Below, one piece after another: positions 9,015-10,065 of a DNA stretch of 64,000 nt (position 1 is its first letter; the number at the start of each line of letters is the position of its first letter). The stretch comes from Desulfovibrio sp. JY (lineage in GTDB: Bacteria; Desulfobacterota; Desulfovibrionia; Desulfovibrionales; Desulfovibrionaceae), in assembly GCA_021730285.1 (NCBI GenBank), contig CP082962.1:3977501-4041500 (forward strand), given 5' to 3'. The position numbers and the translations under genes were made by a program. The notes beneath the pieces were generated by a model that ran no database searches, was not told the origin of the DNA, and saw only the letters and a program-made list of their open reading frames with translations.

Positions 9015-9815
9015 TCACTCCTTGATCAGCGACTCCATGGCCGCATCCACGCCGGCCCCCTCGTGCACGATGGCCGTCACCGCCGCGAGCAGTTTCGCCG
9101 GGGCCGGGTCCTGGAAAATGTTGCGCCCGACCGAAAGCCCCGCTCCGCCGGCCGCCACGCTGCCCGCGATCATCTCCAAAAGCGCACGCCGCGAATCGAC
9201 CTTCGGCCCGCCGGCAATGACCACCGGCACGCAGCAGCCGGCCACCACCCGGGCGAAACTGTCCGGATCGCCGGTGTAGGGCACCTTAACGATGTCCGCG
9301 CCAAGCTCGTTGCCGACCCGGGCGCAGTGGGCCACCACATCGGCGTCAAACTGGTTTTTGACTTTGGGTCCGCGGGCATACACCATGGCCAGGACCGGCA
9401 CGCTCCAGGACGCCGCCGCCTCGGTCACCCGCCCCAGGTCGTCGAGCATGCGCGCCTCGGTTTCGTCGCCAAGGTTCACATGCACGGACACGGCATCGGC
9501 CCCGAGCTTGATCGCCTCCTCCACCGTGCACACCAGCGTCTTGGCATTGGGGAAAGGCGACAGGTCGGTACTGGCCGAAAGGTGGATGATGAGCCCCACG
9601 TCGCGACCGCGCGCCCGGTGGCCGCAGCGTACCACGCCCTTGTGCATGAGCACGGCATTGGCCCCGCCGGCCACGATATTGGTCACGGTCCCACGCATGT
9701 CGGCAATGCCTTCGATGGGGCCAACGGATACGCCGTGGTCCAGGGGCACGATAATGGTACGCCCGGTGTCGCGGTTGATGATGCGTTCCAGACGGATGGA
9801 TTTGCCGATGTTCAT
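9015..9815 (-). CDS. 2-amino-3,7-dideoxy-D-threo-hept-6-ulosonate (ADTH) synthase
   Basis: A 266-residue DhnA/class I aldolase-type TIM barrel. The motifs [57 protein letters not shown] (Schiff-base Lys), [10 protein letters not shown] and GRNIFQ run closely parallel to the methanogen enzyme MJ0400. That enzyme condenses a deoxy-ketohexose phosphate with aspartate semialdehyde in the alternative route to 3-dehydroquinate. The ATG at 9815 has an AAGGAG SD. Its partner, 3-dehydroquinate synthase II, is not in this window. A Tyr-rich leader ORF and terminator immediately upstream suggest control by Tyr-tRNA charging. A plain fructose-bisphosphate aldolase is the less likely alternative. Confidence 0.85.
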
Positions 9816-9872
9816 GGTCGTTCTCCTTGGCTGTGTTATCGCCAGGGGTCCGGGGAGTCCCGGTCGACCAAC

Positions 9873-9905
9873 AAAAAGGGCCGCCGGGCAATCTGCCCGC
9901 GGCCC
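9873..9905 (-). terminator. Attenuator terminator in the ADTH synthase leader
   Basis: On the minus strand a 12-bp GC stem (9894-9905 with 9878-9890, one bulged base, 3-base loop) is followed directly by TTTTT. It lies 58 bases before the ADTH synthase start and 27 bases after the leader stop, where an attenuator should be. Its 5' arm contains GGGCCGC, which can alternatively pair with GCGGCCC at 9937-9943, inside the leader's own palindrome. Confidence 0.75.
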
Positions 9906-9925
9906 CAGTCGGCGGTGTTGTGGAT

Positions 9926-9943
9926 GCGGCCCTATAGGGCCGC
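9926..9943. promoter_or_regulatory. Palindrome spanning the leader stop codon (switch element)
   Basis: A perfect 18-base palindrome (GCGGCCCTA TAGGGCCGC) contains the last sense codon and the TAG stop of the leader ORF. Either half can pair with the other half or with an arm of the downstream terminator, giving mutually exclusive structures. A ribosome at the stop codon would mask it, favouring the terminator. Confidence 0.6.
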
Positions 9944-10030
9944 GCCACCCGCCAAGCCGCGAGCGCGTCGGCCGTAATAATAATACGAACCGGCAAAAAG
10001 AGTACGCGTGGCGTTGGTGCGGGTGAACAT
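9932..10030 (-). CDS. Leader peptide with four consecutive Tyr codons (attenuator)
   Basis: A 32-codon ORF starting [15 protein letters not shown] and running through TAT-TAT-TAT-TAC (9974-9985) to a TAG at 9932-9934. Four adjacent tyrosines in a tiny ORF, followed by alternative GC-rich stems and a terminator and then by the first enzyme of aromatic biosynthesis, match the layout of ribosome-mediated attenuators such as trpL and pheL. Stalling at scarce Tyr-tRNA would let an antiterminator form; fast translation to the stop would allow termination. The ATG lies 9 bases after the bioD stop. A GAGAGGA SD is about 12 bases away, and the proposed promoter would make the mRNA almost leaderless. 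Confidence 0.75.
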
Positions 10031-10036
10031 GACTTT

Positions 10037-10065
10037 TTTCTAGTCCTCTCCCGCTTCCCCGTCAA
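10037..10065 (-). promoter_or_regulatory. Predicted sigma-70 promoter for the Tyr leader/ADTH synthase
   Basis: On the minus strand TTGACG (10060-10065) and TAGAAA (10037-10042) are separated by 17 bases. The -10 element overlaps the bioD stop codon. Transcription would begin close to 10030, at or next to the leader ATG. Confidence 0.5.

Follow-up and report, generated by a model that had tools for sequence, protein, structure and literature searches.

A putative tyrosine-tuned attenuator ahead of a stand-alone ADTH synthase gene in Desulfovibrio, and a candidate family of related leaders

Background

The attenuators of Corynebacterium glutamicum are reportedly leaderless transcripts, an observation said to go back to Neshat et al. 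in 2014. In this organism the AroR leader, whose control run reads Phe-Tyr-Phe, precedes aroF, which encodes a DAHP synthase (described in passages of PMC11802643 and PMC4046766). Leaderless starts have been mapped experimentally for trpL (rnTrpL) in Sinorhizobium meliloti (passages of PMC7298713) and for leader peptides in Streptomyces lividans (passages of PMC8079986). For Desulfovibrio vulgaris, Table 7 of PMC1173090 lists a putative attenuator, taken from Merino's website, before the operon aroA'>aroB'>pheA>aroF>tyrA>[trp]; the word 'leader' is absent from the main text of that paper, as far as its available passages go. An earlier note on the DNA studied here had doubted the novelty of its own finding, a doubt that this entry of 2005 justifies. 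Our literature search, which covered mostly open papers and is weak evidence of absence, returned no description of a Tyr leader on ADTH synthase (ADTHS) and, beyond the 2005 table entry, no series of Phe, Tyr and mixed leaders and no such switch in Desulfobacterota.

Here we describe the leader of a stand-alone ADTHS gene on the minus strand of the window, by which we mean the whole stretch of 64,000 nucleotides that was analysed (Desulfovibrio sp. JY, contig CP082962.1, positions 3,977,501 to 4,041,500). Judged from its letters and those of its relatives, this leader is very likely a ribosome-mediated attenuator that would answer to the charging of Tyr-tRNA, set on a Tyr-specialised ADTHS isozyme.

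Two ADTH synthase genes in one genome

The product of the gene at 9815-9015 scores 370 bits against the NCBIfam equivalog TIGR01949 (cut-off 299) and matches the MJ0400 chains along residues 2-264 (E 4e-92), identifying it as ADTH synthase. The genome (4.69 Mb, 100% complete) holds a second ADTHS gene at C1:644884, 68% identical to the window copy, which heads an aromatic operon. Its leader, MQSLTNPTTGFYFWFWFSHARGQGGVRSN, is of the Phe/Tyr/Trp type, and the ORFs that follow were read from their translations as DHQS-II, chorismate mutase/prephenate dehydratase, aroA, tyrA, trpE, trpG, trpD and trpC. Neither class I (PF00793) nor class II (PF01474) DAHP synthase has a Pfam match in the genome, so ADTHS is the sole entry to the aromatic pathway that was found there, and it is present in duplicate. 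The proposal that entry into this pathway is set by Tyr-tRNA charging would therefore apply to one isozyme, which has a Tyr leader, and not to the second, which has a Phe/Tyr/Trp leader. One of the two first enzymes of the pathway would very probably be made mainly at tyrosine shortage.

A third, aldolase-like relative in the genome is 37% identical (G000:C1:2172157-2172933) and lacks an aromatic leader by the score used below; a fourth ADTHS match is weak and partial. Tandem pairs of ADTHS genes lying close together were also seen (L130, L157, L206, L228 and G227:C170:18121/18940, which is L060). An aromatic leader was found ahead of one copy only in L130, L206 and L228, and ahead of the 18121 copy only in the L060 pair.

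A conserved leader ORF with aromatic codons

All the parts that the earlier note had read from the window are present (Table 1): the 32-codon ORF with TAT-TAT-TAT-TAC, its stop within a palindrome, the terminator with its T5 run, and ADTHS with its own Shine-Dalgarno sequence. Region 2 is complementary to 9905-9895 over its full 11 nt, with three G-U pairs. A search of the whole window with Rfam 15 at gathering scores returned only two tRNAs, and no known leader, riboswitch or T-box.

Table 1. Features of the leader region and its neighbours, in order of transcription (window coordinates)
Feature	Positions	Strand	Remarks
bioD	10681-10040	-	upstream neighbour of the leader region
-35 box TTGACG	10060..10065	-	within the 3' end of bioD; 17-nt spacer to TAGAAA
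-10 box TAGAAA	10037..10042	-	overlaps the bioD stop TAG (10042-10040); leader ATG 6 nt further
Leader peptide ORF, 32 codons	9932..10030	-	predicted translation from a leaderless mRNA; relatives carry leaders too
Control codons TAT TAT TAT TAC (four Tyr)	9974..9985	-	direct reading
Region 2, GCTCGCGGCTT, 5' strand of the antiterminator	9954..9964	-	just 3' of the Tyr run
Inner hairpin, nested in the antiterminator	9911..9953	-	includes the 18-nt palindrome and, in it, the leader stop
Palindrome GCGGCCCTATAGGGCCGC, 18 nt	9943-9926	-	leader stop (9934-9932) inside
Whole terminator stem with T5, GC-rich	9906-9873	-	-25.5 kcal/mol
Region 3, GGGCCGCGGGC, 5' arm of the terminator	9895..9905	-	common to terminator and antiterminator
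Region 4, GCCCGGCGGCCC, 3' arm of the terminator	9878..9889	-	covariation, stem energy
T5 run of the intrinsic terminator	9873..9877	-	direct reading
Shine-Dalgarno AAGGAG of the structural gene	9823..9828	-	direct reading
Stand-alone ADTH synthase gene (ADTHS, aroA')	9015..9815	-	TIGR01949 and MJ0400 alignment

Relatives were drawn from 80 contig loci and, within the family of the window, from about 150 listed genome positions, which gave 236 ADTHS starts and 192 distinct upstream regions; because these loci are the best query matches among the matches listed, the counts do not describe a random sample of ADTHS. Among the matches listed, 168 of the 192 upstream regions carry a short ORF with at least four Phe, Tyr or Trp codons in eight, six of them judged by eye to be false calls (L062, L077, L081, L116, L143 and L147), and an intrinsic terminator follows the ORF in 164 of the 168, so that the trpL/pheL-type layout proposed for the window recurs across its relatives. 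At least five aromatic codons in eight are present in 151 of 187 ADTHS upstream regions, compared with 17 of 935 for dinucleotide-shuffled sequence and 15 of 936 for windows drawn at random. By the first of these scores no leader was found in 24 of the 192 (again among the matches listed), of which three are incomplete (L047, 206 nt; L064, 116 nt; L157, 1 nt); the others include second genes of tandem pairs and L118 (MAYYCYG), which falls just under the score.

In the window's genus, the gene was recovered from 13 of 14 genomes among the matches listed, the missing one being 69% complete. All 12 distinct stand-alone ADTHS upstream regions of the genus among these matches have a Tyr run (YYYY, with YYYYY in L094 and YYYGY in L086), in agreement with Tyr as the sensed residue. 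The string by itself is not over-represented: counting both strands and every frame, the 4.69-Mb genome has TAY x4 at 2 sites and the reversed pattern at 6. The argument against chance is the position of the run within a conserved short ORF, not the rarity of the string. The peptide keeps its length across the leaders and has a recognisable C-terminal end (SRACG, SHARG, RARG), and the aromatic run varies in order and identity (YYYY, FFFFFSFYF, FYFWFWF).

Promoter and predicted leaderless start

With false calls removed, 160 leaders remain, of which 158 have a TTGACA-like box (at least 5 of 6 positions) upstream. In 143 of these 158, an in-frame ATG follows the -10 box after a gap of 5-10 nt, and in 139 of the 143 a pyrimidine (C or T) directly precedes that ATG. 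By a similar rule, a box lies at that distance from 148 of 160 leader starts compared with 8 of 160 ADTHS starts. The window itself has the arrangement TTGACG-17-TAGAAA-6-ATG. Transcription typically starts 6-8 nt after the -10 box, which would place the start on or next to the leader ATG and predicts a leaderless leader mRNA, a point that the earlier note does not raise. As the predicted promoter (10065-10037) lies in the 3' end of bioD, the ADTHS gene need not depend on transcription of the biotin genes.

Six deep-branching leaders are exceptions to this arrangement (L073, L074, L076, L078, L079 and L080; two from Syntrophobacterales and four from Deltaproteobacteria). Their gap is 24-32 nt with a GAGG-type sequence before the ATG, their runs read FYFSYYYF or YYFSYYYF, and their terminator stem is a different one (AAAAGCCGTGG...).

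Control codons follow gene context

The predicted control codons go with the setting of the gene: Phe/Tyr/Trp runs are found ahead of operon copies, and Tyr-only or Phe-only runs ahead of stand-alone copies. By class labels that rest on an eight-codon core, DHQS-II adjoins ADTHS behind 86 of 93 F/Y/W leaders, 11 of 17 F+Y, 1 of 25 Tyr and 0 of 33 Phe leaders, and in 9 of 24 cases with none, the downstream sequence being too short in 2 of the 33 Phe-class and 1 of the 93 F/Y/W-class loci. Eight leaders of the YFFYFFYFW type were labelled FY because their W lies just outside the core, and were relabelled for the tree. Five copies with Tyr, Phe or F+Y leaders (L046, L050, L051, L053 and L067) are followed by pheA and are not stand-alone.

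The leaders were also compared by hand with the position of trpD, leaving out L034, L048, L052, L084 and several leaders without Trp, whose contigs were too short. Where Trp lies inside the run and the contig is long enough, trpD is found within 10 kb on the same strand in 13 of 14 cases (the exception is L083), a count that becomes 13 of 16 with the addition of L076 and L080, whose Trp codon lies next to the run. The resolved leaders without Trp (L005, L010, L013, L046 and L053) have no trpD within 10 kb on the same strand, and L078 joins this group, with no trpD nearby, if its early Trp codon is disregarded.

In a midpoint-rooted tree of 100 ADTHS proteins, the stand-alone copies to which the window belongs form one clade of 10 rows (SH-aLRT 97), labelled as seven Tyr (L147 doubtful), two Phe/Tyr and one without a leader (L118). 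A second Tyr pair (L172 and L197) lies elsewhere in the tree, and the Phe-only copies form one clade of nine and a separate pair (L125 and L137). Each specialised class therefore has at least two separate places in the tree, which does not polarise the change between classes.

These runs and their distribution bear on the possibility that the attenuator is real but that its Tyr run reports general aromatic or amino-acid starvation, Tyr specialisation being drift from an F/Y/W ancestor. Three members of the Tyr clade (L001, L090 and L109) retain one or two Phe codons before the run, and AroR of C. glutamicum, for all its Phe-Tyr-Phe run, responds to Phe and not to Tyr according to passages of PMC11802643. 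However, a Tyr-dominated run without Trp is maintained across the stand-alone clade, and the separate pair L172 and L197 is also of the Tyr type; we consider general starvation an unlikely signal.

Terminator and antiterminator share one arm

The 186-nt window leader folds more stably than 200 of 200 shuffles (z -3.7). For comparison across relatives, 63 of 83 cluster representatives were hand-picked for alignment A1; because this selection favours good alignment, the counts were repeated on alignment A2, which takes in 79 of the 83 by adding 16 more divergent representatives and omits only L062, L077, L081 and L147. Region 2 pairs with the terminator 5' arm in 92.5% of cells in A1, compared with 37-43% when slid by 1-3 columns, and, slightly more weakly, in 89.2% in A2 (37-46% slid). 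The terminator helix is paired in 93.1% of cells in A1 and 93.3% in A2 (28-62% slid). A fixed terminator pattern misses the window stem because of an extra base, and was not used in these counts. Cells changed on both sides number 46 in the antiterminator and 81 in the terminator of A2, the antiterminator value being unexceptional in itself, as it was matched by 60 of 500 shuffles in A1 and 34 of 500 in A2.

The two helices can be told apart at arm base 9898 (column 109 of A1, column 143 of A2). This base is unpaired within the terminator in 47 of 79 sequences and pairs with region 2 in 73 of 79 (UA 31, CG 24, UG 15, AU 3), so the antiterminator seems to be selected in its own right. The leader codon opposite 9898 switches among Cys, Arg and Ser in step with the pairing. 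Matched region-2/arm duplexes average -20.6 kcal/mol compared with -18.4 for swapped ones, a difference reached in none of 10,000 permutations, a test that leaves the relatedness of the sequences uncorrected; those of the second Tyr pair (L172 and L197) are weak (-12.3 and -11.4). With false calls removed, region 2 was located in 159 leaders and the inner helix in 156. Matched inner helices average -13.5 kcal/mol compared with -10.7 when swapped (0 of 5,000 permutations, again uncorrected for relatedness), and the inner-helix energy lies below that of shuffles in 143 of the 156. The median gaps, 11 nt from the last aromatic codon to region 2 and 15 nt from region 2 to the stop, would accommodate a ribosome.

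Sequence comparison thus documents the parts of the predicted switch, their conservation and the covariation of both helices. In the aligned ADTHS upstream regions of relatives, the comparison that the earlier note had suggested, Tyr runs are kept in the genus and the stems covary. Its view that terminator and antiterminator exclude each other is upheld, as both use the same 5' arm and both covary; its choice of GCGGCCC:GGGCCGC as the antiterminator is not, because this 7-nt pairing exists in the window but the conserved element is 9964-9954. GCGGCCC was rejected as a conserved antiterminator: beyond the genus, just 1 of 147 leaders has an exact 6-nt complement of the arm in the stretch from region 2 to the stop, and within the genus 7 of 12 have one, counting the 7-nt match read directly in the window.

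Folding with a ribosome in place

For folding, the window leader was cut at the end of region 3, and the 30 nt under the ribosome were barred from pairing. Whichever of the four Tyr codons the ribosome occupies, the minimum-free-energy structure is the antiterminator, inner hairpin included (-49.8 to -54.1 kcal/mol). A ribosome at the stop, about 20 nt from region 2, leaves that region uncovered and masks the inner arm; region 2 then finds its partners upstream, and the antiterminator is lost. Region 3 keeps few alternative pairs in this state, among them five bases with the 5' end of the leader. In the window, region 3 is paired with region 2 to a fraction of 0.65 when the ribosome is stalled, compared with 0.08 when it is at the stop. 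Over 164 leaders, the mean fractions are 0.63 stalled, 0.34 at the stop and 0.58 with no ribosome; the stalled value exceeds that at the stop in 132 of the 164, by more than 0.3 in 71. Of the 12 genus leaders, 6 (L001, L085, L087, L089, L090 and L094) show this drop at the stop and 6 do not; in L088 the antiterminator is absent in every ribosome state. At equilibrium, the full-length RNA favours the terminator on average in each state (0.88-0.90), so the switch must be kinetic, decided during transcription.

That equilibrium preference, the strength of the stem (-25.5 kcal/mol) and the masked folds without a switch in half of the 12 genus leaders would suit a constitutive partial terminator with a fixed readthrough fraction, the short ORF being incidental or serving translational coupling. 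Such a terminator is nevertheless a very unlikely explanation, given that region 2 covaries with the arm at a base unpaired in most terminators and that aromatic codons are enriched to the extent of 151 of 187 upstream regions compared with 17 of 935 shuffles. Also very unlikely is nascent-peptide arrest by a TnaC-like leader peptide, whose signal in the exit tunnel would be a free aromatic amino acid and not the charging of tRNA. The conserved length and recognisable C terminus of the peptide speak for it, but what is conserved is an aromatic codon run of varying order and identity with no fixed residues. Moreover, the C-terminal residues that can be recognised map to region 2, where the changes among Cys, Arg and Ser codons track arm pairing (columns 25/109 of A1, 34/143 of A2).

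For the Tyr-tRNA attenuator, we propose the following sequence of events. Transcription would start at or adjacent to the leader ATG, and a ribosome would load on the leaderless mRNA. When charged Tyr-tRNA is scarce, the ribosome would stall in the run of four Tyr codons, its front reaching region 2 or stopping slightly before it. Region 2, together with the inner hairpin, could then close onto the 5' arm (9905-9895) before the 3' arm exists, blocking the terminator, and the ADTHS gene would be transcribed and then translated from its own Shine-Dalgarno sequence. When Tyr is ample, the ribosome would reach the stop at 9934 and cover the arm of the inner hairpin, which would free region 3 to pair with region 4, and transcription would stop at 9873. 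In this scheme we infer where transcription starts, that the leader is translated, which way the switch works and that the cellular signal is Tyr.

A possible wider family of the same switch

Searched against its own genome, model R1 gives two strong matches, both ahead of ADTHS genes (8e-16 and 1.4e-9), the sequence behind the second being itself part of the model. There are 19 weaker matches up to E = 1; the best (4e-5), the only one inspected, is without an aromatic leader ORF.

Elsewhere, five leaders with Trp runs (WWW, NWWRFW, CWWLW, WWWQWW) have the same region-2/terminator element (L269, L267, L270, L275 and L277). The switch stands ahead of trpE in L269 (G235:C17:387229-387333; Pfam Anth_synt_I_N) and ahead of DctP-type TRAP solute-binding proteins in L270 and L277 (by Pfam) and L267 and L275 (by eye), where tryptophan uptake is the presumptive function. 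Two leaders with Phe/Tyr runs and the same switch precede a sodium:solute symporter, L266 (G242:C2:260826-260916; Pfam SSF) and L272 (G007:C6:220284-220385; by eye); the symporter is a possible aromatic amino acid transporter.

A broader reading, to which we give about an even chance, is that of a Desulfobacterota attenuator family that joins a fixed switch (region 2, inner hairpin and terminator) to a leaderless leader ORF. Duplication would have been followed by exchange of control codons, the operon copy keeping Phe, Tyr and Trp and the stand-alone copies turning Tyr-only or Phe-only. In the folding model the antiterminator forms without a ribosome; in this family, failed leaderless initiation would therefore leave the switch on, and it would be off only when the leader is translated through. 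If this is true, the family would be an RNA counterpart, without repressors, of the E. coli DAHP synthases that are tuned to Tyr, Phe and Trp.

Comparison with known systems

For the ADTHS entry to aromatic biosynthesis, the literature found gives no worked-out control beyond the 2005 entry, and the family would supply one. It would also offer a natural series in which the pairing logic stays constant and the amino-acid input is exchanged between paralogues, a case of regulatory divergence after duplication. If the leaderless start is true, another major group, beside actinobacteria and rhizobia, would use leaderless leader peptides.

The mechanism class is classical, and the family appears undescribed except for the putative attenuator of D. 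vulgaris. That putative element precedes the paralogous gene and most likely represents the operon form of this family; it is a prediction for one organism, and the available passages of PMC1173090 hold no stand-alone gene, control codons, comparison of paralogues or leader peptide. Like AroR, the present leader places Phe/Tyr-type codons before the first enzyme of the aromatic pathway; unlike it, the organism is not an actinobacterium, the gene encodes ADTHS rather than a DAHP synthase, and the run is of Tyr rather than an F-Y-F run with a response to Phe. In E. coli trp, absence of the ribosome gives no antitermination, whereas the folding model here gives antitermination in that state. The leader shares with E. 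coli pheL and trpL, as passages of PMC11802643 present them, a run of control codons in a leader ORF and one arm common to terminator and antiterminator, and differs in the residue, which is Tyr, in an antiterminator that encloses the stop-codon hairpin, and in a start that is predicted to be leaderless. In this last respect it would resemble the leaders of S. meliloti and S. lividans, with an attenuator transcript predicted to begin at the leader ATG, whereas those belong to other phyla and operons and use Trp, Leu, Ile, Thr or Met codons.
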